IMG/VR virus record: IMGVR_UViG_3300034073_001055
Coordinates: 1 to 20,423 of that record
Direction: 5' to 3' (one strand)
Source: a virus
Length of the DNA stretch: 20,423 bases
Under the pieces are notes generated by a model that worked only from the letters and a program-made list of their open reading frames with translations, searched no databases and had not been told where the DNA came from. A program made the position numbers and the translations under genes. Positions 2,738 through 15,984 of this stretch are shown in pieces (position 1 is the first letter of the stretch; every line of letters starts with the position of its first letter).

Positions 2738-3229
2738 CCGGTCGCCGTTGTAGTGTCCTACGGTCGCATAGCTGAGCGCTGGGCGTTGGCTCATACGAAA
2801 GAACACCATCTGGCCGATCTTCAAGCCCGGATAAATCGGTAACGGCTGAAGCTGCCGCTGGTTCTTTAGTTCCAGTGTCAGGCTGCTGCCATGCCAACCG
2901 GGATCGGCATAACCGGCGTGTAGATTTTCGTATCCTTCACGCGCGCGGCTTGACTTTAGGAAGAACAACCCAGCGACATCCTCTGGCATGTTGAACATTT
3001 CCATCGTCTGCGCAAGAATGAACTGCCCTGGCACCAGTTCGTATGGGTGTTCTGGCGTGTAATGCTTGATCGACAGCGGAATCATTTCGTGCGATTGCAC
3101 GGATTCCAGCAGGATGAGACTACCAAGCCGCAAGTCAAGACTGGCAGGATTGATCAACTCTGGGTCATGGTCTTGCACCATGCCTTCATTGCGGATCAGG
3201 TCTTGGATTTCGGTGTCACACAGAATCAT
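2666..3229 (-). CDS. dcd: dCTP deaminase / dUTPase-fold enzyme
   Basis: This 187-residue protein belongs to the dCTP deaminase-dUTPase superfamily. It shows INPASLDLRLG (27-36), LVPGQFILAQT (65-75), the nucleotide-binding KSSRAREG (92-99), and HAGYADPGWHG followed by LTLELKN, whose Glu (E120) is the expected catalytic residue. The reaction expected is dCTP plus water to dUTP and ammonia, feeding dTMP synthesis; some members also hydrolyse dUTP. The Glu and the SSRA motif favour deaminase over plain dUTPase. In phages such enzymes rebalance the nucleotide pool, and they can matter where unusual pyrimidines are made. It overlaps the preceding small gene by 14 bases. Confidence 0.85.
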   Translation of the reverse strand: MILCDTEIQDLIRNEGMVQDHDPELINPASLDLRLGSLILLESVQSHEMIPLSIKHYTPEHPYELVPGQFILAQTMEMFNMPEDVAGLFFLKSSRAREGYENLHAGYADPGWHGSSLTLELKNQRQLQPLPIYPGLKIGQMVFFRMSQRPALSYATVGHYNGDRLVTASKVTEQVFGRAQVPRLDAA

Positions 3230-3359
3230 TGTTCTCCGCTAGTCCGGTGTACAGGGCGTGCATGGGATGATTTTTGTCATGCCGTCCATCTGCGGCATAT
3301 AGCGCCTCTAGATCATCTTGACGCTGCTGTTGTTCTTTGGGGTCGCAATCAAGTTTCAT
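3216..3359 (-). CDS. Small phage protein with HPMHxLYTGL motif (47 aa)
   Basis: A short gene starts at ATG 3359, overlapping the end of the zinc-ribbon gene by 11 bases, and ends 14 bases inside dCTP deaminase. The product has a charged Gln-rich helix (DPKEQQQRQDDLEALYAADG) and then KNHPMHALYTGLAE. The pattern (helix, GR, HPxHxLYTGL) recurs, as far as I recall, in small proteins of tailed phages; no function is known. The overlaps on both sides fit the chained coupling of this operon. Confidence 0.6.
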   Translation of the reverse strand: MKLDCDPKEQQQRQDDLEALYAADGRHDKNHPMHALYTGLAENNDSV

Positions 3360-3570
3360 TGGTTTTGATTTCAAGGACTCTTCCATTGGGGGACCATTTC
3401 AATTTGTATTTGCTAAGGGTTTGCTCTGGTTGCTGCTGTGTATACCACCGATGATCGCAACCATCACACCTTCGCCTCCTGACAATTATGCCATCTTTTA
3501 GGGGGCTGGTCATAATGACATACGTTTTTTGGCAAGAGCACTTAGGGCATCTGATTTGAACTGTTGGCAT
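3349..3570 (-). CDS. Zinc-ribbon protein (NrdR/Ogr-like)
   Basis: This 73-residue protein has two zinc-knuckle pairs, CPKC near the N-terminus and CDGC about 25 residues later, with a basic RRRR before the second pair and a following HRWYT. This is the layout of NrdR-type zinc ribbons and of phage Ogr/Delta-like late activators. Such ribbons bind nucleic acid or support transcription regulation. Only the ribbon is present; the NrdR ATP-cone domain is absent. The start at 3570 lies inside the previous gene (61-base overlap), but no later start would keep CPKC. It may be a small regulator working with the phage sigma factor; that is inference. Confidence 0.65.
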   Translation of the reverse strand: MPTVQIRCPKCSCQKTYVIMTSPLKDGIIVRRRRCDGCDHRWYTQQQPEQTLSKYKLKWSPNGRVLEIKTNET

Positions 3571-6796: not shown

Positions 6797-6814
6797 TGGG
6801 TTGCCGGTGGTTGT

Positions 6815-6829
6815 GGAGGTTCCCCCTCC
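6815..6829 (-). promoter_or_regulatory. 5' leader hairpin of the clamp/sigma operon
   Basis: On the leftward strand the leader reads GGAGG-GGGAA-CCTCC, a perfect 5-bp stem with a 5-base loop. It begins about two bases after the predicted transcription start and is followed by a C/A-rich leader ending at ATG 6796. It buries the only SD-like GGAGG. Two other leftward operons carry a hairpin at the same place. Confidence 0.45.
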
Positions 6830-6837
6830 ATGGATCA

Positions 6838-6867
6838 ATAGTATCACACCTATGCACTGTTTGTACA
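6838..6867 (-). promoter_or_regulatory. Leftward promoter of the clamp/sigma operon
   Basis: The -35 candidate is TGTACA (6862-6867) and the -10 candidate is GATACT (6840-6845), 16 bases apart; TACTAT (6838-6843) is an alternative -10. Both boxes are imperfect (four of six). Placement in the only non-coding gap before the long leftward operon, just past the SSB terminator, supports the call. Confidence 0.4.
6853..6867. promoter_or_regulatory. Operator-like palindrome (degenerate copy)
   Basis: TGCACTGTTTGTACA differs at two arm positions from TGCACA-N3-TGTGCA, which occurs as perfect copies at 9572-9586 and 15955-15969. It overlaps the predicted -35 of the leftward promoter, where a repressor would block RNA polymerase. 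Confidence 0.4.
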
Positions 6868-6890
6868 CAGATTTGTAAATAGCATGAAAT

Positions 6891-6914
6891 AAAAAAAGCC
6901 GGGTTGCCCCGGCT
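6891..6914 (-). terminator. Intrinsic terminator after ssb
   Basis: On the leftward strand the sequence is AGCCGGG-GCAA-CCCGGCT followed by seven T residues. The 7-bp GC-rich stem, GNRA-type loop and T tract form a textbook rho-independent terminator, placed 22 bases past the ssb stop. It separates the recombination operon from the clamp/sigma operon. Confidence 0.92.
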
Positions 6915-6935
6915 GGTTTCTTTTGATTGCTTGCT

Positions 6936-7262
6936 TCAGAACGGAGTCTCCATGGCTTTTGCCTTGGGTGGCAAGCTGAAATCATTGACTCGCATCACGA
7001 TTTTCGCTCCCTTATCACCGTCTTTGCGCTCGTACTGTTCGACGTAGCCATCTCCAACAACGGTCACCTGCGATCCCTTGATGAGAAAATCGCCGATGAC
7101 CTGCGCACGCTTGCCCCATACAGAGCAGTCAATGGCGGTAACAATGTCCCCGTCACGCCCTTTGCGGTTGCAAAGCACCGTAAAGTTTGCAACTTCAGCT
7201 TCGCCTACGGTTTTGATCTCCGGGTCCCTGGCAAGATTGCCAACAGCAGTCAGTGTCAACAT
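6936..7262 (-). CDS. ssb: Single-stranded DNA-binding protein
   Basis: This 108-residue protein is an OB-fold SSB: MLTLTAVGNLARDPEIKTVG, then VANFTVLCNRKG, DCSVWGKRAQVIGDFLIKGS and QVTVVGDGYVEQYERKDG. It coats single-stranded DNA during replication and recombination, normally as a tetramer. It is shorter than cellular SSBs, with no long linker; the end METPF keeps the terminal Pro-Phe but lacks the strongly acidic tail that normally recruits partner proteins. It is the last gene of an operon with an annealing protein and RusA, followed by a strong terminator. Confidence 0.92.
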   Translation of the reverse strand: MLTLTAVGNLARDPEIKTVGEAEVANFTVLCNRKGRDGDIVTAIDCSVWGKRAQVIGDFLIKGSQVTVVGDGYVEQYERKDGDKGAKIVMRVNDFSLPPKAKAMETPF

Positions 7263-7300
7263 GATTGGATAGCGGTTTGATAATGCGTTGCGACTAGCGG

Positions 7301-8020
7301 TTAGCTAGACAGAAACGCATTGATGAACTCGACCTGGCCTTGTGTTTTGATCTCTTTGGACAATGCCGCCTTGGCATCTAGCTTGTACTGCTTGCGAAAC
7401 GCTTTTGTCAGCTCTGCAATTTTGTCTGGTGTTTTTTCGTGCACTTCCGATAACAGCGCAATGACCATTTTGTATTCTTCCTCGTCGATAGGCATCTCAG
7501 AGACATCGATTTGATTGGCAGACTCTGGTTGCGGTGCCGTCTCTGGTTTTGATTCTGCCTTTGGCTTGGCAGCGGGCTTTGGTTTTTCCTCTACAGCAAC
7601 AGCGACTGCATTGCCAGCCTCTGTAACCTCTTCTTTTGCCCACAGCTCGTAACCAAGTGAGAGCGTGAATGCAGCACAAGCGCAAAGAGCACGCCGATGA
7701 GCGTCTGTCAATGCACGAGCGCTGATCTTGTCAAACTGAATGGCATTGTTTCGGTTATCCATGATCGGAAACGGAAAGTCGGCCGTCGCCTGATCTTCTG
7801 GGCCGGTGAAATAGCCAATTAGGTAGCCAGTGCCATCTGGTGCTTTCCAGATGTGATTCCCATCTTGGGCTTGTTTGAGATGAAATTCCCAACCAGGGGC
7901 ATGTGTGTGCAGATGATTGGCAATGCGCGCCCAGGCGACATACGATGCGGCATAGCTGCCACTGCCTTTGCTATAAACATCGTCTTTGGTGATGACACCA
8001 GCGAGATTTGGATAGGTCAT
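7301..8020 (-). CDS. Single-strand annealing protein, Sak3/DUF1071-like
   Basis: From ATG 8020 the product is 239 residues. Residues about 15-125 resemble DUF1071 (Sak3) recombinases: ASYVAWARIANHLHTHAPGW, a variable strand region, FPFPIMDNRNNAIQF and DAHRRALCACAAFTLSLGY. These proteins anneal complementary single strands, as Red beta does. A Pro/Lys/Glu-rich linker follows, with repeated KPKA/KPET, and then a helical tail that may contact SSB. The next gene is ssb and the preceding one RusA, a typical recombination neighbourhood. ATG 8020 gives an ATGA overlap with the rusA stop and is preferred over a TTG at 8035. Confidence 0.75.
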   Translation of the reverse strand: MTYPNLAGVITKDDVYSKGSGSYAASYVAWARIANHLHTHAPGWEFHLKQAQDGNHIWKAPDGTGYLIGYFTGPEDQATADFPFPIMDNRNNAIQFDKISARALTDAHRRALCACAAFTLSLGYELWAKEEVTEAGNAVAVAVEEKPKPAAKPKAESKPETAPQPESANQIDVSEMPIDEEEYKMVIALLSEVHEKTPDKIAELTKAFRKQYKLDAKAALSKEIKTQGQVEFINAFLSS

Positions 8021-8445
8021 GAGATAGGTGTGCAAGTAATGATTGCGCCTGGGCGCTCTGATGGTGTGCAGTAACGCTTGTAGGCGTTAATCTCGACAAC
8101 TTGGCAGTCATCGTCAAACAGCACGGTCGTCAAGGCATCAAGAATGCCTCGCGTGAGTTTGTCGATGTCACCAATACTTTTGCTGATTGCTTTGACTGGT
8201 GCCCTATTTGATAGTTCGCCTTTGCTGTTGAAATGCGACTTAGGACGTGGAAAGCAAAATGCCAAGCTGACGGACATTGGAACACTGGTGTCCCACTGTT
8301 GCGGTCGATTGCATTGAGCGGCAAAACGAACATCTTGACGCCAAGGCTTGAGATGCGGGCTGGATTCAACCATGCGACCATTGCCAAGAGACCGTTTGCT
8401 GCCTTGTGGCCGACTGATGCCTTCCACAAAGAATGTGATGCTCAC
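8017..8445 (-). CDS. rusA: RusA-like Holliday junction resolvase
   Basis: From a GTG at 8445 the product is 142 residues, close to RusA. It begins VSITFFVEGISRPQGSKR, the N-terminal strand and PxPKxR-like motif of the family, and later has the metal-binding core: GDIDKLTRGILDALTTVLFD followed by DDCQVVEI. The Asp residues of DxDK and FDDD match the RusA active site. The enzyme cuts four-way junctions during recombination and replication. The GTG shares bases with the upstream TGA (GTGA), the best argument for this start; an in-frame TTG at 8469 would overlap more. Confidence 0.88.
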   Translation of the reverse strand: MSITFFVEGISRPQGSKRSLGNGRMVESSPHLKPWRQDVRFAAQCNRPQQWDTSVPMSVSLAFCFPRPKSHFNSKGELSNRAPVKAISKSIGDIDKLTRGILDALTTVLFDDDCQVVEINAYKRYCTPSERPGAIITCTPIS

Positions 8446-8747
8446 TTTTGTTTGACATGGCTCACGCAAACATAGGTTGTAACCTTGCGATCTGCAATAC
8501 CTAGGTGCTGCTCGCGCTCTTGTAATGCCTTGACGGCTGGCGAATAAGACCAGGTTGTGCGTGCTCTGCGTTCCAGCTTGACGCCCTCGACAACAGCATT
8601 ACCTTTTTCGTCGAGGTAGTCATCGAGGTCACCGACGGACCATGCGACAGAAAGTTGGCCGATGATGTCAGATTTTTCTGTTTCAAGCTCTTTGATAAGA
8701 GCTGAGATTTCAGAGACCCTGCGAGTCATTTCTTGGATAGCTGTCAT
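8442..8747 (-). CDS. Coiled-coil hypothetical protein, Gam/Gp157-like by context (101 aa)
   Basis: ATG 8747 gives MTAIQEMTRRVSEISALIKE and a charged coiled coil, followed by an acidic middle (DLDDYLDEKGNAVVEGVKLE) and a C-terminal part with TTWSYSPAVKALQEREQHLG and a beta-like tail. The layout, a coiled coil followed by an SPAVKxLQExEQ segment, resembles phage proteins placed beside recombinases; similarity to Gp157 or the nuclease inhibitor Gam is only suggestive. It is the first gene after the strong promoter at 8786-8814 and overlaps rusA as GTGA. Upstream in-frame codons lie in the promoter and were rejected. Confidence 0.6.
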   Translation of the reverse strand: MTAIQEMTRRVSEISALIKELETEKSDIIGQLSVAWSVGDLDDYLDEKGNAVVEGVKLERRARTTWSYSPAVKALQEREQHLGIADRKVTTYVCVSHVKQK

Positions 8748-8764
8748 GATGATCTGTGTGTAGT

Positions 8765-8778
8765 GGCAGTTGTCTGCC
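8765..8778 (-). promoter_or_regulatory. 5' leader hairpin of the recombination operon
   Basis: The leftward strand reads GGCAG-ACAA-CTGCC, a perfect 5-bp stem with a 4-base loop. The predicted transcription start from the promoter at 8786-8814 is about 8779, so the hairpin would sit at the very 5' end. A C/A-rich leader without a Shine-Dalgarno sequence follows to ATG 8747. Confidence 0.45.
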
Positions 8779-8785
8779 TGCTGCC

Positions 8786-8814
8786 ATTGTACCAAAAAGT
8801 GCAAAGGCTGTAAA
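8786..8814 (-). promoter_or_regulatory. Leftward promoter of the recombination operon
   Basis: On the leftward strand -35 TTTACA (8809-8814) and -10 TACAAT (8786-8791) are exactly 17 bases apart, each five of six to the sigma-70 consensus. It precedes the coiled-coil/rusA/annealing/ssb operon. The spacer holds TGCACTTTTTGGTACA, a possible degenerate operator with one extra base between its arms. The non-coding stretch 8815-8960 also holds an 8-bp inverted repeat (8852-8859 with 8908-8915) of unknown meaning and nothing else that I recognise. Confidence 0.75.
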
Positions 8815-8960
8815 TAGATGGTCAGGATTTGGATCAAGATTGCATAAGCTGCAACAGCCCCACCGAGGACTTATTTGACCGTTGCTCTTGCCTTGTCTTA
8901 GCGCAGTGGCTGTTGTTCGACTTTCAGCCAATAGGCATCAGGAATCCCGACCTGACGCGA

Positions 8961-9155
8961 TCAAGACAAAGGGTCCTGCTCATAGCCAAAGAACCAATGA
9001 TCCGGACCAAAGCGCTTCATGAGTTTTAAATCAGTTGATGTCATGCTGCTTGTTTCGGGATCTTTGCAAATTGCTTGTGCTTGTTGCAACGAAAGACCGG
9101 ATTCAATTCTTATTGGTGAATTATTGAAGCGAAAGCAATAAACAGAATAGGTCAT
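8961..9155 (-). CDS. Small hypothetical protein (64 aa)
   Basis: ATG 9155 overlaps the TGA of the upstream gene (ATGA). The product reads MTYSVYCFRFNNSPIRIESG, then LSLQQAQAICKDPETSS and a C-terminal KRFGPDHWFFGYEQDP. A beta strand pair, a helix and an aromatic tail suggest a small globular fold. No family was recognised. It is the third gene of a short leftward operon driven by the promoter at 9548-9577. Confidence 0.55.
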   Translation of the reverse strand: MTYSVYCFRFNNSPIRIESGLSLQQAQAICKDPETSSMTSTDLKLMKRFGPDHWFFGYEQDPLS

Positions 9156-9331
9156 CGAATTGTTTGATTGCGTTTGTGGAAGCTGGCTGACAGCTTTTTG
9201 TCAAGCTGAAAGATTTTGTCTTCGTATGATCCAGGTTCTGGTTCGTATTGCCAATCGCCTTTACGAAGCTCGATTGCTTCGTGGCGAACAACGCAATACA
9301 GAAGATCAAGATCGGAATGAGTAAAGTCCAT
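9152..9331 (-). CDS. Small hypothetical protein (59 aa)
   Basis: ATG 9331 follows the upstream stop by one base and its own stop overlaps the next start. The product starts MDFTHSDLDLLYCVVRHEAI, then ELRKGDWQYEPEPGSYEDKI and a basic tail (KLSASFHKRNQTIR). It looks like a helical protein; no motif was recognised. The longer frame from 9388 was rejected because it would sit inside the upstream gene. Confidence 0.55.
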   Translation of the reverse strand: MDFTHSDLDLLYCVVRHEAIELRKGDWQYEPEPGSYEDKIFQLDKKLSASFHKRNQTIR

Positions 9332-9332
9332 G

Positions 9333-9509
9333 TCACATGCCCATTTTTTCTTTAAGCAGCTTTCCAAAAGCTTTGCGATATTTCGCAAGCTCTCGTTTGG
9401 ACTGCATCATGTCATCAAGGCGGCCAGCAGCAAAATGATGCTGATAGGCGGTTTCTTGTTCGCTAATGAGCTGTTTGATGTGATGTAGCTGGTCTGTGAT
9501 TGTGGTCAT
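9333..9509 (-). CDS. Small basic helical protein (58 aa)
   Basis: ATG 9509 gives MTTITDQLHHIKQLISEQET, then AYQHHFAAGRLDDMMQSKRE and a Lys-rich helix LAKYRKAFGKLLKEK. Two long helices with heptad spacing suggest a helical hairpin or small coiled coil. It is the first gene after the operator-promoter at 9548-9586 and ends one base before the next start. No family was recognised. The codon after ATG (ACC) and the short C/A-rich leader resemble the start at 6796. Confidence 0.6.
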   Translation of the reverse strand: MTTITDQLHHIKQLISEQETAYQHHFAAGRLDDMMQSKRELAKYRKAFGKLLKEKMGM

Positions 9510-9524
9510 AGGTCCTGGTGGTGG

Positions 9525-9540
9525 TCGAGATCCCTCCCGA
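9525..9540 (-). promoter_or_regulatory. 5' leader hairpin of the small-gene operon
   Basis: The leftward RNA would read UCGGGA-GGGA-UCUCGA, a 6-bp stem with one G-U pair. The predicted transcription start is about 9541, so it begins at the transcript 5' end, as in the operons starting at 6796 and 8747. It hides a GGGAGG sequence. Confidence 0.45.
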
Positions 9541-9547
9541 TGTAGAC

Positions 9548-9577
9548 ATTATACACCATTTTGACCACTAGTGCACA
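9548..9577 (-). promoter_or_regulatory. Leftward promoter of the small-gene operon
   Basis: A perfect -10 TATAAT lies at 9548-9553 on the leftward strand. The -35 is weak: TGTGCA (9572-9577) at 18-base spacing or TTGTGC (9573-9578) at 19. Either one is embedded in the palindrome at 9572-9586, so a bound protein would cover it. Confidence 0.65.
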
Positions 9578-9586
9578 ATCTGTGCA
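9572..9586. promoter_or_regulatory. Operator-like palindrome TGCACA-ATC-TGTGCA
   Basis: Two perfect 6-base arms flank a 3-base centre. The same arms with GTC in the centre occur at 15955-15969, also over a predicted -35 region. It starts immediately after the stop of the 67-residue gene. Likely the binding site of a dimeric phage regulator. Confidence 0.65.
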
Positions 9587-9790
9587 TTAAGGTGTTTTTG
9601 CCTTGTCTCGCATGGCTCTGTAGTCCACACGAGCAACCTTTTTGACCTTGCGCGTATTGTTGCCCTTGACTCGCTTTTGCCCATGCTTGGCGTATCGTTC
9701 GGCAGTTGCCAGTCTTGCCGCTGCGATCGCCTCATCTCTGCCTGGTGGTTCAGGTATGCCTGCATTGGCAAGGATTTCTGTCCAGTTCAT
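9587..9790 (-). CDS. Small basic phage protein with AGIPEPPGR motif (67 aa)
   Basis: ATG 9790 overlaps the TGA of the exonuclease gene (TGATG). The product begins MNWTEILANAGIPEPPGRDE, then an Ala-rich helix AIAAARLATAERYAKHG, and ends in a very basic tail (KRVKGNNTRKVKKVARVDYR). The NW-x-EILA-x-AGIPEPPGR pattern is, from memory, common in small uncharacterised phage proteins near recombination genes. The basic tail suggests nucleic acid binding. It is probably co-translated with the exonuclease and may assist it. Confidence 0.65.
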   Translation of the reverse strand: MNWTEILANAGIPEPPGRDEAIAAARLATAERYAKHGQKRVKGNNTRKVKKVARVDYRAMRDKAKTP

Positions 9791-10404
9791 CAGAATGGCA
9801 GCGCGATGGATTTTGAATGTTCCATGAGTTTGTCTTCCCAAGCTGAAAAGCAGTCGCTAGGGCTTTCACTGATGACGCGACTGCGCCCTGGGCCGACGAC
9901 AACCGTGCAGCATTTGCTGACTTCTATCGACGGGTAGTTCAGGTTTAAGCCGTGCAGGTATCCGCCGAGTTGAGCGGTGGCCGCCTTGCGTGTGTCAACA
10001 GCTTTTTCAGTTTGAACGGTCTTGAAGTCCAGCAAGGTGATGCCGCCGTCAGATGTGCGTATAACCCCGTCGAAGGTGCCTGCAATCTCGTGATGAGGGA
10101 TCACAACACCAAGTTCGACAGCAAGCGTCTCAGCACCTTCTAGCAGCCAGCAAGACTTGAGGGCATCAATCCATGGCTCGTACTCGCCAGCCTCTGGCTC
10201 AAGCCCAAGCAGCAGCGCCTCGGCAGCCGTATGCACATGGTTGCCTCGTGGCTGCCAAATGTGCCGCGTCTCTTCAAAGCGAGCCTGCTGCTCTGCTGTA
10301 ACTGGCTGAGCAATCCTGCTCACGCTGTAGCGCATCCAGGAACCCCGGTAACGGTATCGATGAATGTCTGGAAAAAACTCCAGGTCGGCGAGCGGCTGCA
10401 ACAC
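9790..10404 (-). CDS. PD-(D/E)XK exonuclease (RecB/Cas4-like phage nuclease)
   Basis: This 204-residue protein shows the PD-(D/E)XK core: RGNHVHTAAE (53-62), an acidic strand with E97, AGTFDGVI (D112), LLDFKT (D126, K128) and the late QLGGYL (Q145, Y149). This motif order is typical of RecB-type and phage recombination exonucleases that chew double-strand ends. Together with the annealing protein, SSB and RusA encoded leftward of it, it would complete a Red-like recombination pathway. The start is a GTG at 10404; the preceding 50 bases hold a divergent promoter pair. It overlaps the next gene. Confidence 0.82.
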   Translation of the reverse strand: MLQPLADLEFFPDIHRYRYRGSWMRYSVSRIAQPVTAEQQARFEETRHIWQPRGNHVHTAAEALLLGLEPEAGEYEPWIDALKSCWLLEGAETLAVELGVVIPHHEIAGTFDGVIRTSDGGITLLDFKTVQTEKAVDTRKAATAQLGGYLHGLNLNYPSIEVSKCCTVVVGPGRSRVISESPSDCFSAWEDKLMEHSKSIALPF

Positions 10405-10406
10405 GT

Positions 10407-10435
10407 TTGATTCGCTTGTGCCCTCATTGTATAAT
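10407..10435 (+). promoter_or_regulatory. Rightward promoter for the replication arm
   Basis: -35 TTGATT (10407-10412) and a perfect -10 TATAAT (10430-10435) are 17 bases apart. Transcription would start near 10442, inside the operator-like palindrome, leaving an 18-base leader before ATG 10460. Confidence 0.8.
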
Positions 10436-10456
10436 GGCAGTGCACCATTTGTTCAA
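10428..10456 (-). promoter_or_regulatory. Leftward promoter for the exonuclease
   Basis: On the leftward strand -35 TTGAAC (10451-10456) and -10 TATACA (10428-10433) are 17 bases apart. The two -10 boxes of this and the rightward promoter overlap on opposite strands, so the promoters should compete for polymerase. Confidence 0.65.
10441..10455. promoter_or_regulatory. Operator-like palindrome between divergent promoters
   Basis: TGCACCATTTGTTCA matches TGCACA-N3-TGTGCA at ten of twelve arm positions. It lies at the rightward transcription start and in the spacer and -35 of the leftward promoter, so one bound dimer could shut both arms. Confidence 0.45.
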
Positions 10457-10459
10457 ATC

Positions 10460-10621
10460 ATGCCCAGAGTTGTTGTAGACCTCAGCCAGACGATGCACGC
10501 TTGGCTAGAGTCAAAGCGAGGCGAGTGGAAGCCGAGAACGGTTGTCCTGAGAGAGATCATCGAGGATGCCATGCATCGAGATCTAGCTCAAAAGGCTTCT
10601 AACGGCAGCGACGCCAAATAA
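10460..10621 (+). CDS. Small ribbon-helix-helix regulator (53 aa)
   Basis: ATG 10460 gives MPRVVVDLSQTMHAWLESKR, then WKPRTVVLREIIEDAMHRDL and a polar tail. A short strand (RVVVDLS), helix, turn and second helix (TVVLREIIEDAMHRDL) match an Arc/CopG-like ribbon-helix-helix fold. As the first gene of the rightward arm, preceded by an operator-like palindrome at its own transcription start, it is a good candidate for an autoregulatory early repressor. That is inference. The longer frame from 10364 was rejected because it runs through the promoter. Confidence 0.65.
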   Translation: MPRVVVDLSQTMHAWLESKRGEWKPRTVVLREIIEDAMHRDLAQKASNGSDAK

Positions 10622-10624
10622 AAA

Positions 10625-10666
10625 GCCCGGCAGCGTCGCCACGCGTACCGGGCACCCTTAACGGGG
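10625..10666 (+). promoter_or_regulatory. Structured leader before the replication initiator
   Basis: Directly after the stop of the ribbon-helix-helix gene, GCCCGG (10625-10630) pairs with CCGGGC (10648-10653), enclosing an inner stem GCGT-CGCC-ACGC (10633-10644). A smaller CCC-TTAAC-GGG hairpin (10655-10665) follows, then a C/A-rich leader to ATG 10690. No T tract follows on this strand, so it is not a rightward terminator; on the opposite strand the big hairpin is followed by five T residues. It may tune initiator expression or stop antisense transcription. Confidence 0.5.
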
Positions 10667-10689
10667 AAGCAACCACAAGCAAACCAATT

Positions 10690-11487
10690 ATGCCACGAGT
10701 CAAGTCAACTGGCTTCTCGATCTGTCCACATGAGCTGCTGGATCAGATTGCCGAGCCAGGCGGAAAGCAAAGAGTCTGCGTCTACCTGCTGCTGCATCGC
10801 TACGGAAATGCCAGTCAGCAAGGCTGCTACGCCTCGGTCACAACGCTGTCAAAAGAGCTTGGCAGCAGCCGTCGTGATGTCATGTCAGCCATTCATTGGC
10901 TAATCGATAACGGGTGGGCCACTTACACCTACGACGACGGTCATCGCAGGCACATCTACCTGAACGCCGATAGGCGCAAGCAACGCAGTGGCGGTAGTCA
11001 AAAGGGCACTGATGCCCGGTATCCAAAAAGGCACCGCGGTATCCAAAAAGGCACCAATAGCGAAAGTGCCCTTTTAGGCACCGACCCTGGTATCCAAAAA
11101 GGCACCCAAACAAGAACCCATAAACAAGATCCCTCTATGGCTTTACTAGGTACTGACGTACCTACTAAACCCATAGATGCAGATTCATGTGAAAAAAACG
11201 GGAAAGGAAAGACCAGATCACTTCCTGCTGAACTTGAGCGCCATCGCGAGCTGATCCAGGCGTTCTGGAAGATCAAGAAAGGCTCAAAAGGTGACATCGC
11301 CTGGAAACTTTTGTGCACAGAGCTGTTAAAATTCCATGGGCACCTCGGACCCGATGTGGTCGAGGAGCAGTTGACACACGCGATCAACGGCAAATGGGCG
11401 GGCATCAACTACGGCCGTCATTTGCAGTTCAACCCGCACCTCGTCAGCGCAACAGCCAGCACCGCACCCGAATACGTGATTCGTTAA
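10690..11487 (+). CDS. Replication initiator, lambda O-like winged-helix protein
   Basis: This 265-residue protein has an N-terminal winged-helix region (about 15-100): RVCVYLLLHRYGNASQQGCY, then ASVTTLSKELGSSRRDVMSA and IHWLIDNGWATYTYDDGH, as in phage O/DnaD-type initiators. The middle (about 101-140) is low-complexity and encoded by iteron-like DNA repeats, giving repeated GIQKGT. The C-terminal part (about 180-265), with ERHRELIQAFWKIKKG and a final INYGRHLQFNPHL, may contact a helicase or loader. Such proteins bind origin iterons and recruit replisome parts; here the origin probably lies in the gene itself. It follows the structured leader at 10625-10666. Confidence 0.75.
   Translation: MPRVKSTGFSICPHELLDQIAEPGGKQRVCVYLLLHRYGNASQQGCYASVTTLSKELGSSRRDVMSAIHWLIDNGWATYTYDDGHRRHIYLNADRRKQRSGGSQKGTDARYPKRHRGIQKGTNSESALLGTDPGIQKGTQTRTHKQDPSMALLGTDVPTKPIDADSCEKNGKGKTRSLPAELERHRELIQAFWKIKKGSKGDIAWKLLCTELLKFHGHLGPDVVEEQLTHAINGKWAGINYGRHLQFNPHLVSATASTAPEYVIR
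10993..11106. repeat. Iteron-like repeats, probable phage replication origin
   Basis: The unit GGTATCCAAAAAGGCACC occurs exactly at 11018-11035, 11038-11055 and 11089-11106. A degenerate direct copy lies at 10993-11010 (14 of 18) and an inverted copy at 11065-11082. The first two exact copies are 20 bases apart. The array lies inside the replication initiator gene, as lambda iterons lie in O, and an A-rich stretch follows. Confidence 0.7.
11147..11164. repeat. Inverted repeat next to the iterons
   Basis: TAGGTAC-TGAC-GTACCTA is a perfect 7-base inverted repeat with a 4-base centre, 40 bases after the last iteron and inside the A-rich part of the initiator gene. It could be an origin element or a protein site. 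It encodes the LGTDVPT part of the initiator linker. Confidence 0.45.
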
Positions 11488-11783
11488 TGGAACTTTTTGA
11501 CACACGCCTTGCCAACGCCTACATCTGGGCTTGCAGCGAAAAGAAAGACCGCTCGTTCCCACCAAAGCAGGTTTATCGAGCAACGCAGCAGCCCAATTTC
11601 GACAAACTTGCGATCGATCACAATCAGATTGGTGATTTTCCAGTTGGTCGCTACGACGAGGTGGGGCGTTACCAGACCTACTGCCCGCCGCTGCCCAGTG
11701 TCGCTGGTGGCCTTGGGCGTTACATCATCCACCCAGGCGCCGAGGAGGCGTACAAGACTGCCGTTAAGGCTGCTTGGTCATGA
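11487..11783 (+). CDS. Hypothetical protein coupled to the initiator (98 aa)
   Basis: The ATG at 11487 overlaps the TAA of the initiator (TAATG). The product begins MELFDTRLANAYIWACSEKK and continues with YRATQQPNFDKLAIDHNQ and a Gly/Tyr-rich part (VGRYDEVGRYQTYCPPLPSV). It ends in a helix. No family was recognised. Coupling to the initiator suggests an early function, possibly with replication. Longer frames starting inside the initiator were rejected. Confidence 0.6.
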   Translation: MELFDTRLANAYIWACSEKKDRSFPPKQVYRATQQPNFDKLAIDHNQIGDFPVGRYDEVGRYQTYCPPLPSVAGGLGRYIIHPGAEEAYKTAVKAAWS

Positions 11784-12049
11784 CACTGCACCCACTCGGC
11801 ACCTTCGACGGGACCGGCGATACTCTTGCTCGAATGGCTGCCAAAGGTCATTGCTCTATCGATGACCTTGACAAAGCTCCGCCTGGTGCAGTAGCTGGCT
11901 ACGAGCCACGCAACTTGCTCAAAGACTGGATCGCTGTCAATCAAGCCAAATGGCAGCAAATCCTTGACGAGCACAACGTTCAGCCTGAGCCAGCCGTAGA
12001 GGCTTGCCCATCACCACGCGATTTCCCTACAAACGATCTGCCTTTCTGA
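11780..12049 (+). CDS. Hypothetical protein (89 aa)
   Basis: ATG 11780 overlaps the previous stop (ATGA). The product starts MTLHPLGTFDGTGDTLARMA, has a helical middle (LLKDWIAVNQAKWQQILDEH) and ends PRDFPTNDLPF. The terminal acidic-Leu-Pro-Phe resembles the tip of SSB tails that recruits replication partners, but this alone does not make it an SSB. No domain was recognised. It is co-transcribed with the initiator. Confidence 0.6.
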   Translation: MTLHPLGTFDGTGDTLARMAAKGHCSIDDLDKAPPGAVAGYEPRNLLKDWIAVNQAKWQQILDEHNVQPEPAVEACPSPRDFPTNDLPF

Positions 12050-12348
12050 TGCCACGTTTCGCAAACTGCAAAGTCGAAGTGCGCTTTGACCAGGAAACCT
12101 TTGACCAAATCAACAAAGCTGCTACCGCCTGTGGCCTTACGCGCTCAGAGTTCATTCGCAATGCTGTTGTGGGAAATAACGCTTGCGTTGCGTCAGAGGT
12201 GTCTGGAAGCGTCTCCAAGCCGCCTCTAACTCTTGACAGGTATCTGACACTGGTCCAGCAGGTTTACCGCGCCCTGGGCGGCTCTGTGAGCAGATCAACG
12301 GCTGAACTGTGCGTTGCCGTTACCGTGCAAAGCATCTACAAGGGCTAA
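12049..12348 (+). CDS. Ribbon-helix-helix / MobC-like protein (99 aa)
   Basis: ATG 12049 overlaps the previous TGA (TGATG). The N-terminal half reads KVEVRFDQETFDQINKAATA followed by CGLTRSEFIRNAVV, a strand and two helices with the L-x-R-SEFIRNAV pattern of CopG/MobC-type ribbon-helix-helix proteins. The C-terminal half (LTLDRYLTLVQQVYRALGGS) is helical and may mediate oligomerisation. It probably binds DNA near the origin or regulates the arm. The longer frame from 12004 adds residues encoded in the previous gene and was rejected. Confidence 0.65.
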   Translation: MPRFANCKVEVRFDQETFDQINKAATACGLTRSEFIRNAVVGNNACVASEVSGSVSKPPLTLDRYLTLVQQVYRALGGSVSRSTAELCVAVTVQSIYKG

Positions 12349-12356
12349 ATCCAGTC

Positions 12357-12566
12357 ATGGACCAGCAGCTTGAAGTTAAAGGCATCAGTGGGTTGTACAA
12401 GTTTTCGTACAATGCTGACGAAAGAAGCCTTCGTTTAACCGCTTGGCCCAATGGTGACCCATCAGCGCGCATCATTGCTGCTGGCTTGCCACAGACATTG
12501 GAAAAAGCTCGCCTTGCTGCTCAAAACTATGTAAGGTATGTTGAAACTGACTTCCAAAGCTGCTGA
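12357..12566 (+). CDS. Hypothetical protein (69 aa)
   Basis: ATG 12357 gives MDQQLEVKGISGLYKFSYNA, then a beta-rich stretch RSLRLTAWPNGDPSARIIAA and a helix with LEKARLAAQNYVRYVE. It looks like a small beta-sheet plus helix domain. No family was recognised. It ends 8 bases before the ParB-like gene. The longer frame starting at 12309 lies within the previous gene and was rejected. Confidence 0.55.
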   Translation: MDQQLEVKGISGLYKFSYNADERSLRLTAWPNGDPSARIIAAGLPQTLEKARLAAQNYVRYVETDFQSC

Positions 12567-12574
12567 CAGCTTCA

Positions 12575-13378
12575 ATGCTTCCTTTCGACAATGTTGAGAC
12601 AGAATCGACTGTCACGTCGATCAAAGATCTCAAATATGACCACAAAAATGCTCGCCGTCGCACTGATCGGTCAAGCACGCTGATTGCTGAATCGCTTAAA
12701 CGTTATGGAGCGGCTCGCAGCATCGTTATCGATGAAGAGAACCGCATCCTTGCAGGCAATGGCACCATTGAAGGCGCTAAGTCAATCGGCATCAAAAAAG
12801 TGCGCGTCATCGAAACCGATGGCAGCGAGATCATTGCCGTTAAACGCACTGACCTAAACGAGGAAGACAAAATTGGTCTTGCCCTTGCTGATAATCGCAC
12901 CAGCGATCTCAGCGAATGGGATGGGGCAATGCTGCATCAGCTCAGTGAAGAGCATGACATCAGCGCCTGGTTCAGCAAAGAAGAACTTGATGAGCTTTTT
13001 GGTGTCGAAGAAACCATTGACGAAGATAGCCCTTACACAAACAAAACCACGGCTCCTATCTACGAACCAACAGGCGCACAGCACAAGCCCGAGCATCTCT
13101 ACGACACCGCAAAAACAAATCGCCTGCTTGCCGATATCGAAGTAGCCGAGATCCCTGATGACATCAAGGATTTCCTAAAATCAGCAGCACATCGGCATAC
13201 GGCTTTTAACTACAGTAAAATTGCTGACTATTACGCGACGGCATCAAAAGAAATCCAAGAACTGTTCGAGCAGTCAGCACTGGTCATTATTGACTTTGAA
13301 CAAGCCATCGAAAATGGCTTTGTCCGCCTAGACGCCAGCATCGAAGAAGCTTTCAAGCAGGATCATCCACATGCGTGA
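12575..13378 (+). CDS. ParB-like nuclease-fold protein paired with a glycosyltransferase
   Basis: This 267-residue protein has an N-terminal ParB/Srx-like domain (about 12-85): IKDLKYDHKNARRR, LIAESLKRYGAARSIVIDEE, then NRILAGNGTIEGAKSIGIKK. The usual AGHGR box is AGNGT here, so the His and Arg of many ParB-fold enzymes are replaced. A second part (95-145, LALADNRTSDLSEWDG) is typical of phage ParB proteins that travel with DNA-modifying enzymes. The C-terminal region (about 170-260) with FNYSKIADYYATASKEIQEL and FEQSALVIIDFEQAIENGFV seems a separate conserved domain. Its stop overlaps the glycosyltransferase start by 8 bases, so the two are probably made together. ParB-fold proteins can bind DNA and CTP or ATP; a targeting or base-modifying role is inferred. 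Confidence 0.78.
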   Translation: MLPFDNVETESTVTSIKDLKYDHKNARRRTDRSSTLIAESLKRYGAARSIVIDEENRILAGNGTIEGAKSIGIKKVRVIETDGSEIIAVKRTDLNEEDKIGLALADNRTSDLSEWDGAMLHQLSEEHDISAWFSKEELDELFGVEETIDEDSPYTNKTTAPIYEPTGAQHKPEHLYDTAKTNRLLADIEVAEIPDDIKDFLKSAAHRHTAFNYSKIADYYATASKEIQELFEQSALVIIDFEQAIENGFVRLDASIEEAFKQDHPHA

Positions 13379-14231
13379 CGACTTTTGCATCTTTATCCTG
13401 TCAAACCGCAGGCCAGATAACATCAAAACGCTTGAGACCCTTCAGCGTTCCAATTACGACGGCAAGTGGTACATCGTCATCGACGACGAAGACCCGACAG
13501 GCGATCAATACAAAAAAGCCTACGGCGACAAGGTTCTGGTCTTTTCTAAAGCCAAGGTCGCAGAAACGACAGACTCATGCGATACGTCAAAAGACCGCCG
13601 CACGCCGTTATGGGCACGAAACGCCTGCTGGGATCTGGCGAAGCAAGTCAAATGCCGTTACTTTTGCCAGCTTGATGACGATTACACCTGGTTCTCCTAT
13701 CGCCGCATAGGTCGCAAAGACCCAGGCGGTCCGCCGAAATACTCGAACTTTAAGGCAGAAAGCCTTGATATCGTTTTTGGTGCCATGATCGAGCTGCTTG
13801 AATCAACACCATCCGTGTCAAGCATTGCGTTCTCTCAAGGTGGTGACTACAACGTCAGCTCAGAAAAAGCCAGACGTGTCCTGCGCAAAGCAATGAACTC
13901 ATTCTTTTGCGATACGCAGCGCCCGTTCAAATTCATCGGCAAGTTCAACGATGATGTCAATACCTACATCGCCCATGGTGCCACGGGCAAGCTGTTTTTT
14001 ACCTACTGCCCAATACAGCTCACACAAGGCGTAACGCAGCAAAACAAAGGCGGAATCACTGAGGCCTACAAGGAAAATGGCACCTACGTCAAATCCTTCT
14101 ACACCGTCATGATCTCGCCGTCGTCAACATGGATCGAACTCATGGGCCACAAGAATCCACGCCTACACCACACACATGACTGGAATAAGGTATGCCCTAA
14201 AATCATCCACGAAAAATATCGACGCCAATAG
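13371..14231 (+). CDS. TET-associated-type glycosyltransferase (TAGT/GREB1-like)
   Basis: This 286-residue protein resembles the TAGT/GREB1 family of GT-A-type glycosyltransferases found in phages. Motifs: FILSNRRPDNIKTLETLQ (8-25), WYIVIDDEDPTGDQY (33-47), RTPLWARNACWDLAK (77-91), the acidic QLDDDYTWF (100-108) expected to hold the sugar nucleotide through a metal ion, FNDDVNTY (192-199) and a C-terminal HHTHDWNKVCPKII. Family knowledge: TAGTs add sugars to oxidised or hydroxymethylated pyrimidines in phage DNA. No TET/JBP oxygenase, cytosine methyltransferase or pyrimidine hydroxymethylase is in the window, so the accepting base is unknown. Coupled to the ParB-like gene and just ahead of terminase. 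Confidence 0.82.
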   Translation: MRDDFCIFILSNRRPDNIKTLETLQRSNYDGKWYIVIDDEDPTGDQYKKAYGDKVLVFSKAKVAETTDSCDTSKDRRTPLWARNACWDLAKQVKCRYFCQLDDDYTWFSYRRIGRKDPGGPPKYSNFKAESLDIVFGAMIELLESTPSVSSIAFSQGGDYNVSSEKARRVLRKAMNSFFCDTQRPFKFIGKFNDDVNTYIAHGATGKLFFTYCPIQLTQGVTQQNKGGITEAYKENGTYVKSFYTVMISPSSTWIELMGHKNPRLHHTHDWNKVCPKIIHEKYRRQ

Positions 14232-14277
14232 TCCAGATATGCTATACATGGTCAAGAAGTAGTCAGTCGTTGCATAA

Positions 14278-14601
14278 ATGGCCCCCAAACGTGGACCAAA
14301 AGCTGAAACCCTTGAACGCGCTGAACGTTTTGCGCGCATCATTGCCAATGGTGGCAGACGGTCAGATTGCATCCGCTACGCCAGGGAAAACTGGGGGGTC
14401 AAAGACGATGCCTGTGATCTTTACCTGCGGCTGGCACGCGAGAAGCTGAAGGCCGACTGGGACATCGAACGACCGCAGATGGTGGCTGACCTGCTAAGCC
14501 AGTGCTCCACATTGCAGATGGAAGCAAGGCGCGCTGGGCAGTATCACATCGCACTCGGCGCTATCAACACAGCAGCAAAGCTTGCAGCACTTTGCTCATG
14601 A
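14278..14601 (+). CDS. terS: Terminase small subunit
   Basis: This 107-residue protein begins with a basic arm MAPKRGPKAETLERAERFAR and a helix-turn-helix (IANGGRRSDCIRYARENWGV) followed by long helices (YLRLAREKLKADWDIERPQM). The size, basic N-terminal DNA-binding region and helical oligomer core fit a small terminase subunit, which selects phage DNA for packaging. Its stop overlaps the start of the large subunit (ATGA). The 46 bases before it hold no clear promoter. Confidence 0.8.
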   Translation: MAPKRGPKAETLERAERFARIIANGGRRSDCIRYARENWGVKDDACDLYLRLAREKLKADWDIERPQMVADLLSQCSTLQMEARRAGQYHIALGAINTAAKLAALCS

Positions 14602-15938
14602 GCATTCTGCTGGAAGCCAAGCCAGGGCATGTGCTTTACAGCGGTGAAGCCGGCAGTAGTGCTCCAACAGCCACCGAAGTCATCGAGCGTATCAACGCAT
14701 CGCTGCTGCCGCATCAAAAGGCGTTCTGCGATGACATGGAACATCGCAAGATTGGCCTTGTCTGCGGGTTTGGTGCTGGCAAGACTTACAGCCTGGTTGC
14801 CAAAGCCTGTGTGCTTGCAGCCAAGAACGTTGGCCACGTCTCAGCCTTATTCGAACCAGTCGCGCCGATGCTCAGGGACATCCTTGAACGCACCATGGAC
14901 GACCTGCTGTCTGAATGGGAGATTCCCTATACCTTTCGCGTCAGCCCGCTGCCTGAGTACGTTCTAACGTTTGCCGAGGGGCAGCACACGATCCTGCTAC
15001 GCACCATGGAAACATGGAACCGGATTCGTGGTCAAAACCTTTGCGCAATTGGATTTGACGAAGCCGATACGGCGAACAAGCGCACAGCGGATCAAGCGAC
15101 ACGAATGGCGTTAGCTCGTCTTCGTGCTGGCAATGTCAGGCAGTTTTATGCCGCCACAACACCAGAGGGTTATGGCTGGGCGTATCAAACGTTTCAGCGA
15201 GAGGCGAAGGATGATACGCGGCTCATTCAAGCCAAAACCGAAGACAACCCATACCTGCCAGATGACTTCATTCCAAGCTTGATTGAGAACTATCCCTCGA
15301 ACCTGATCAAGGCGTATCTGAATGGCGAGTTTGTCAACCTGACGACGGGCAGTGTGTATGACCGCTTTGACCGCAGCAAGCATGTATTTACCAAGCTGCC
15401 TGACTTTGCCAATGAACCGCTGCGTATTGGCGTTGATTTCAACGTTGGCAATATGAGCGCCGTGATCGCCGTGCGTTATGGTGATCGGTTAACAGTGATC
15501 GATGAAATCTCTGGAGCGCATGACACTGATGCGTTGGCTCAAGAGATCAAGCGTCGTTACCCAGAGCATCGCATCTATGTCTATCCAGATGCCAGCGGCG
15601 GCAACCGCAGCACCAATGCAAGTCAAACTGACATTCAGATCCTTGAGACCTATGGCTTCAGCAACCAGTCATCGCGTAGCAATCCTCCCGTCCGTGATCG
15701 GGTGGCTGCTGTTCAGGCTTTGCTGGAGAACGGCAAGGGTCAAATAAGGTTGCAAGTTTCTGACACTTGTAAACGGCTGATCGAGTGCCTTGAGCTGCAG
15801 TGCTGGACAGAGAAAGGCGAGCCTGACAAGGATGCCGGGCACGATCACATGAATGATGCCCTTGGCTACATCATTTGGCGTGAGTTCAATCCGCTGCATT
15901 CCCGCGCTGGCAGGGCAACTGGAATCAGGTTGTATTAA
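14598..15938 (+). CDS. terL: Terminase large subunit
   Basis: From ATG 14598 the protein is 446 residues. The ATPase has Walker A GFGAGKT (57-63), Walker B IGFDEAD (151-157) and a coupling motif with AATTPEGYG (185-193). The nuclease has GVDFNVG (D280), VYPDASG (D331) and HDHMNDALGY (D420), the RNase H-like acidic triad. It drives DNA into the prohead and cuts it at headful or cohesive ends. The family is Terminase_6/3-like; I cannot fix the packaging type. The start is chosen from the ATGA overlap; the frame runs open upstream to 14502 inside terS, which was rejected. Confidence 0.95.
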   Translation: MSILLEAKPGHVLYSGEAGSSAPTATEVIERINASLLPHQKAFCDDMEHRKIGLVCGFGAGKTYSLVAKACVLAAKNVGHVSALFEPVAPMLRDILERTMDDLLSEWEIPYTFRVSPLPEYVLTFAEGQHTILLRTMETWNRIRGQNLCAIGFDEADTANKRTADQATRMALARLRAGNVRQFYAATTPEGYGWAYQTFQREAKDDTRLIQAKTEDNPYLPDDFIPSLIENYPSNLIKAYLNGEFVNLTTGSVYDRFDRSKHVFTKLPDFANEPLRIGVDFNVGNMSAVIAVRYGDRLTVIDEISGAHDTDALAQEIKRRYPEHRIYVYPDASGGNRSTNASQTDIQILETYGFSNQSSRSNPPVRDRVAAVQALLENGKGQIRLQVSDTCKRLIECLELQCWTEKGEPDKDAGHDHMNDALGYIIWREFNPLHSRAGRATGIRLY

Positions 15939-15953
15939 CATTTGTACACAGCA

Positions 15954-15984
15954 TTGCACAGTCTGTGCATTGATTGTGTATGAT
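15954..15984 (+). promoter_or_regulatory. Rightward promoter before the portal region
   Basis: -10 TATGAT (15979-15984) lies 19 bases after TTGCAC (15954-15959), a long spacing, so the -35 may be poor and need an activator. The palindrome at 15955-15969 covers the -35. A TTTGTACACAG string at 15941-15951 recurs at 6860-6870 within the other operator region. Confidence 0.45.
15955..15969. promoter_or_regulatory. Operator-like palindrome TGCACA-GTC-TGTGCA
   Basis: Both 6-base arms match the site at 9572-9586 exactly, and here the palindrome extends to 7 bases around a single centre base. The site sits over a predicted -35 region in the only non-coding gap between terminase and portal. Confidence 0.65.

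Follow-up and report, generated by a model that had tools for sequence, protein, structure and literature searches.

A probable repressor-binding palindrome at fixed spacing from promoters in a family of uncultured cyanobacterial viruses

To our knowledge, early gene control in cyanosiphoviruses has been little described. Here we report on a palindrome, TGCACA-N3-TGTGCA, that recurs at promoters of IMG/VR virus record IMGVR_UViG_3300034073_001055 (the window; the complete record of 20,423 bases), and on a 53-residue open reading frame (ORF) that adjoins a divergent promoter carrying one of the copies. The predicted product resembles the Arc protein of phage P22 in that both are small phage proteins of 53 residues with an N-terminal strand and two helices and, here putatively, an operator at a promoter, but the two have no detectable sequence relation, their operators are different, and ribbon-helix-helix membership is in the present case a weak structural match. 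The length and ribbon-helix-helix class of Arc are those given in PMC4803016. The nearest published layout that we found is the 17-bp repeat TGTTCGG-N3-CCGAACA of Cluster O mycobacteriophages (the Corndog group), a genome-dispersed perfect dyad which also has a 3-bp centre; PMC4351075 describes it as thought to bind a dimeric protein, with 34 copies, most of them away from promoters, and judges a transcriptional role unlikely, whereas here the copies are few and the conserved ones lie at promoters with a fixed spacing. The stoperators of L5-type mycobacteriophages are asymmetric and also stop elongation, whereas the dyads described here are symmetric and promoter-bound; the arrangement of one phage repressor and many dispersed sites (PMC9283540) would be common to both. 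Titles and abstract openings in the literature on cyanophage promoters, ribbon-helix-helix proteins and early operators contained no description of the site.

The dyad is shared by a family of uncultured cyanobacterial viruses, in which its distance to several gene starts is fixed and it is most likely the docking site of a virus-made off-switch protein. We read TGYACA-RNY-TGTGCA as an operator at which a dimeric repressor encoded by the phage would bind, with the 53-residue ribbon-helix-helix-like protein as the likeliest candidate, and give this reading a probability of roughly 0.6. A first-pass annotation of the window, made from the sequence alone, had proposed a palindromic operator at four promoters, a looser copy at a fifth and a single genome-wide phage repressor. 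The coordinates and mismatch counts which it gave for the dyad copies were all correct on recheck: two copies are perfect, those at 6853 and 10441 have two changes, and the looser one has three changes and overlies the -35 together with the upstream spacer in the 8814-8786 promoter (Table 1). All five are intergenic given plausible gene starts, as had been claimed for four of them. A greedy ORF mask ran ORFs to the first ATG, GTG or TTG through promoters, so that the 6853 and 10441 sites were scored as coding; with this mask only 4/6 perfect and 2/9 one-mismatch clade sites were non-coding, and the coding fractions were not used. The two perfect copies compare with 0.01 expected in the window (0/100 shuffles), in agreement with the low chance asserted at first pass.

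Table 1. Positions in the window of the putative operators, the candidate repressor gene and the predicted leader hairpins.
Feature	Position	Strand	Context
Putative operator dyad, TGTACA-aac-AGTGCA (read on the - strand)	6853-6867	-	Leftward promoter in the gap separating SSB from the gene at about 6797
Putative weak operator, TTTACA-gcc-TTTGCA	8800-8814	-	Leftward promoter of the 8442 gene; -10 TACAAT at 8791-8786, 8 bp away
Putative perfect operator	9572-9586	-	Leftward -10 TATAAT at 9553-9548, 18 bp away; likewise 18 bp in L172
Putative operator in divergent gap	10441-10455		9 bp upstream of leftward -10 TACAAT (10431-10426)
Putative perfect operator	15955-15969	+	Rightward promoter after terminase; -10 TATGAT at 15979-15984, 9 bp away
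53-residue ribbon-helix-helix-like ORF	10460-10621	+	In all 11 non-duplicate dyad records
Leader hairpin, TGGAGG/CCTCCA	6814-6830	-	5'-terminal, promoter of the 6853 dyad
Leader hairpin, GGCAG/CTGCC	8765-8778	-	5'-terminal, promoter of the 8800 dyad
Leader hairpin, TCGGGA/TCTCGA	9525-9540	-	5'-terminal, promoter of the 9572 dyad

Relatives of the window were gathered by terminase (best 80 of 142 loci), PDDEXK nuclease (9) and portal (best 80 of 587), and further ones by profiles of the 53-residue ORF (11) and PDDEXK (35) and by the initiator (7); a beta-clamp query gave no confirmed relative. The 53-residue ORF was present in 12 records (window, G001-G008 and G010-G012). G011 and G012 look alike where they overlap and were counted once, which leaves a clade of 11 records (window, G001-G008, G010 and G011). 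These contain 6 perfect dyads against 0.15 expected and 9 one-mismatch dyads against 2.45 expected (order-1 shuffles). A dyad of up to three mismatches was then paired with a -10 element (at least 5/6 to TATAAT, with A2 and T6 required) at a spacing of 0-30 bp. The clade has 39 such pairs; the spacing was exactly 8 bp in 15 of them and 7-9 bp in 23, whereas 181 related loci lacking the 53-residue ORF (1.72 Mb, some overlapping) gave two pairs at 8 bp and five at 7-9 bp with no peak. At least one pair at 7-9 bp was found in 10/11 clade records, and the eleventh (G004) has one with the 4-of-6 hexamer TATTGT. The peak supports the proposal of a shared dyad at several promoters in a position fixed relative to the -10, and together with the number of perfect copies it rules out chance recurrence of the dyad. 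With an 8-bp gap the first half-site begins 23 bp upstream of the -10, which is the -35 position of a promoter with a 17-bp spacer, and the distal half-site therefore occupies the place of the -35 hexamer. An 18-bp gap was seen at two exceptional promoters, 9572 and its G001 orthologue. The promoter of the 6853 dyad (-10 TACTAT at 6843-6838) was entered at a spacing of 8 bp in the hairpin counts and the site consensus, although alignment with L198 makes 9 bp the better reading.

Twenty-five oriented sites gave the consensus T-G-Y-A-C-A / n-n-Y / T-G-T-G-C-A, in which both halves are informative, and 21/25 have the symmetric R-N-Y centre expected of a site for a dimer. The list was hand-curated from the dyad scans of the clade records and the consensus is hence not an independent test.

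Absence of the sites from related phages had been named beforehand as grounds for giving up the proposal. Dyads were instead conserved at orthologous promoters across the 11 non-duplicate records having the 53-residue ORF. Upstream of the gene at 9333 they occur in the window, G001, G007, G010 and G011, and in G003 at three mismatches; upstream of the gene at 8442 or its neighbour in the window and G001 (the orthologue of the 8800 site at L172 12401 has the same spacing), and at the corresponding gap in G004, G005 and G006. The gap between SSB and the next leftward gene has a dyad in the window, G001, G002, G007, G010 and G011, and this gap with its dyad was seen in L085, L090, L172, L196 and L198. 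At the divergent promoter, the dyad of the window and of G008 precedes the leftward -10 by 9 bp and follows the -10 that serves the 53-residue ORF (in the window, it stands between TATAAT at 10430-10435 and the ATG), and the 10441 15-mer has an identical copy in L083; in G002, G007 and G010 the dyad is upstream of the -10 of the ORF. The late dyad after terminase was found only in the window and G008 (L083, position 327), 2/7 of the clade records in which this gap was read. The word genome-wide was thus too strong, as early left-arm promoters and the divergent promoter account for most of the sites. In 20 wider relatives inspected around the slot of the 53-residue ORF, all lacking that ORF, no dyad at up to one mismatch was found, and no dyad-promoter cassette was found in KBS-S-2A, S-H1 or MED4-184.

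The 53-residue protein is the putative binder by elimination of other candidates. Three putative ribbon-helix-helix proteins had been suggested as binders at first pass; the 53-residue one beside the divergent promoter fits, while that at 12004 is missing from the dyad-bearing G002, G003, G005 and G006 and that at 3510 was not found in the 30-kb record G010, and both were ruled out. HTH_3 proteins were ruled out in the same way, being above the cut-off in 2/13 records with the window not among them; small HTH_3 (Cro/CI-type) ORFs lie near the dyad in two clade records only (G002 3011-3100 and G010 2740-2829, both on the - strand). An NrdR-like zinc ribbon was rejected as it is present only in the window among the records searched; it is a 73-residue ORF at 3349-3570 (-) which holds only the zinc-ribbon domain of NrdR, and no counterpart was found in the other clade records searched. 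The HTH_36 protein is of replication-initiator type with iterons of its own, and a sigma factor as reader of the dyad is argued against by the symmetry of the site. A structure model of the 53-residue product has extended residues 1-9 and helices at 10-22 and 26-52, with a predicted local distance difference test score (pLDDT) of 82 and a predicted template modelling score (pTM) of 0.41 for a lone chain, which cannot form a two-chain ribbon. A second structure model gave no convincing structural match. The family (8 members) matched no Pfam family above the cut-off, ribbon-helix-helix profiles included; the ORF had no PHROG match and no PDB sequence match below E 0.97, its profile found nothing in prokaryote genomes, and tblastn against named phages returned only a weak match to Leptospira phage LE1 (E 0.3).

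What we observed is the sites together with their fixed spacing, conservation and co-occurrence with the 53-residue ORF; the binder, the repression (from the position of the sites) and its timing we infer. A dimer bound over -35 to about -21 would exclude sigma region 4 and so compete with sigma, and would shut the leftward early promoters of the replication and recombination genes. At 10441 the divergent promoter of the 53-residue gene would be blocked near the transcript start. Such binding predicts repression together with self-limitation, as for Arc, and the protein could be an Arc-like timer of early promoters. Integrase (PF00589) was found in 0/13 records, all of which are or may be fragments, and KBS2A is described as lacking integration elements in PMC3751600; these points would favour timing of the lytic cycle over a lysogeny switch, with the reservation that the records are fragments. 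A defined operator, a spacing rule and one 53-residue candidate make early control testable in these phages.

Several observations weigh against this assignment. Window dyads at up to two mismatches number 5 against 2.76 expected (20/100 shuffles reach 5) and one of them, at 3248, is intragenic; at up to three mismatches there are 15 against 20.3 expected, and two-mismatch dyads across the 11 clade records are at chance (24 against 24.6). The degenerate copies of the window are not significant alone, and the weak ones become credible because relatives carry this dyad, identically spaced, at the orthologous promoters. At the promoter of the 53-residue gene itself a dyad is clear in 5/11 clade records, the others showing half-sites or a three-mismatch form. 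The top Foldseek rows for the 53-residue model were the ribbon-helix-helix domains of the PrpA and ParD antitoxins, weak at E 2.3 and 2.5, and in the VIA ranking Z was at most 3.0 with photosystem chains above ribbon-helix-helix ones. Several wider relatives have other small ORFs of similar outline in the slot, but these align poorly with the 53-residue family (hhalign probability 2.4), and no recurring dyad was found for them, only origin-type repeats. Co-occurrence cannot separate the 53-residue ORF from neighbours present in all records (PDDEXK, the 9587 ORF, the 11313/11774 ORFs and HTH_36), and the rigid spacing to the -10 could also serve activation.

Repression of this kind might be exerted by a different phage protein, for instance the 84-residue one encoded at 9587-9841 or that of a further conserved small ORF, since none of the clade records covering the 9587, 11313/11774 and PDDEXK ORFs lacks them. 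We regard this as unlikely: Pfam and PHROG gave no match for the 9587 ORF, all three have relatives in G009 (L091), a record in which PDDEXK is at 49%, the slot holds another small ORF and the dyad is missing, and none is, as the 53-residue ORF is, the gene at a dyad-bearing divergent promoter with the outline of a small DNA-binding protein. Somewhat less probable still is that the dyad replaces the -35 and serves activation or sigma appropriation, as the MotA boxes of phage T4 do, so that the promoters would depend on a phage protein to fire. The rigid 8-9 bp spacing, the poor -35 (the distal half matches TTGACA at a mean of 3.84 of 6) and the sigma factor encoded by these phages speak for such a site, but 9572 and its L172 orthologue have a gap of 18 bp, the 10441 dyad follows the -10 of the rightward promoter in a position from which a bound protein ought to block it, and the promoters serve genes expected to act early.

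The composite pattern TGCACARNYTGTGCA-N8/9-TATANT matched three contigs in all of IMG/VR, two of them clade members (one with two matches) and the third (L195) with its match inside the portal gene of an unrelated phage. In 84,980 prokaryote genomes it matched 20 contigs of varied bacteria and archaea, none cyanobacterial, against a chance estimate of about 15, which supports the view that hosts do not commonly carry the pattern. Borrowing of host boxes by phages does occur and the host regulon was scanned with the composite pattern only, but a borrowed box of a host cyanobacterial regulator is very improbable given the chance-like number of prokaryote matches with none in a cyanobacterium, the lack of the dyad in related cyanophage loci without the 53-residue ORF, and the cyanobacterial LexA box (RGTACNNNDGTWCB), from which the motif differs in its half-site TGYACA, its 3-bp centre and its length of 15 bp. 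The first-pass annotation had likewise set the motif apart from that box. As a marker, the dyad-promoter pattern also links metagenomic fragments to this phage clade.

The leaders of the dyad promoters, presumed repressor targets, have a second shared feature. Of the 25 leaders, 20 open with a hairpin that has 5 bp or more and lies no further than 7 nt from the predicted start, where composition shuffles give 1.7; this count is the unselected test. An arm re-dealing test used only hairpin-bearing leaders (16/20 typed, 4 repeats dropped, 12 distinct), and its 100% pairing is a selection effect. The stems are of 5-8 bp and their sequence differs between copies (for example TCAGGG/CCCTGA, AGACGG/CCGTCT and CCGGG/CCCGG); they were found in the window, L083, L085, L087, L089, L090, L172, L173, L175, L196 and L198. 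The five leaders with no hairpin are those into PDDEXK (window), into the 53-residue ORF (G007, G002 and G010) and the late one (window). Similar hairpins follow the small-ORF promoter in some wider relatives without the dyad, and the hairpins therefore do not belong to the operator. They may act in transcript stability or read-through, the unit looks like an operator-promoter-hairpin cassette, and the hairpin offers a second, RNA-level handle on the same promoters.

Only tentatively do we join these elements into a spreading three-part cassette, in which the distal half of the operator may double as the -35, the -10 is fixed, and the hairpin may vary in sequence while pairing is kept. The 53-residue protein may then set when early transcripts are made and the hairpin their lifetime or read-through, and the repressor's own message, without a hairpin, may be handled differently. 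Swapping of the slot protein across the wider family would make the slot a specificity (immunity-like) locus, with no integrase seen in the records. At L091 6155-6171 (the L240 slot) a perfect AGCGC-N7-GCGCT lies at the promoter of a different slot ORF, and the record has just one further perfect copy, at 7810. Swapping of the operator together with the slot protein is unproven.

By terminase, the nearest named phages to the window are the cyanophages S-H1, KBS-S-2A (KBS2A) and MED4-184 (55-60% identity). The leftward early arm encodes a sigma factor, a dCTP deaminase-like protein, a beta clamp, SSB, a Sak-type annealing protein, RusA and the PDDEXK nuclease; the rightward arm encodes the 53-residue ORF, an O-like replication initiator, a ParB-like protein, a TAGT glycosyltransferase, terminase, portal and a Mu F-like protein. 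An Rfam scan of the window gave no match. Between SSB and the next leftward gene a strong hairpin at 6897-6914 has T runs on both strands and is terminator-like in both directions; a similar element follows in L085, L090 and L172. Four direct repeats of about 20 nt (GGTATCCAAAAAGGCACC) lie at 10988-11106 within the O-like initiator gene, and repeats of this type were also found in L090 (5630-5746, four copies) and L172 (10279-10372, three copies). They look like origin iterons. In the wider relatives, AGGTC-N6-GACCT repeats occur near the same place, most of them at intervals of 23-24 bp. At 12575-14231 the ParB-like protein adjoins the TET-associated glycosyltransferase (PF20691), a pairing that hints at modified DNA bases.

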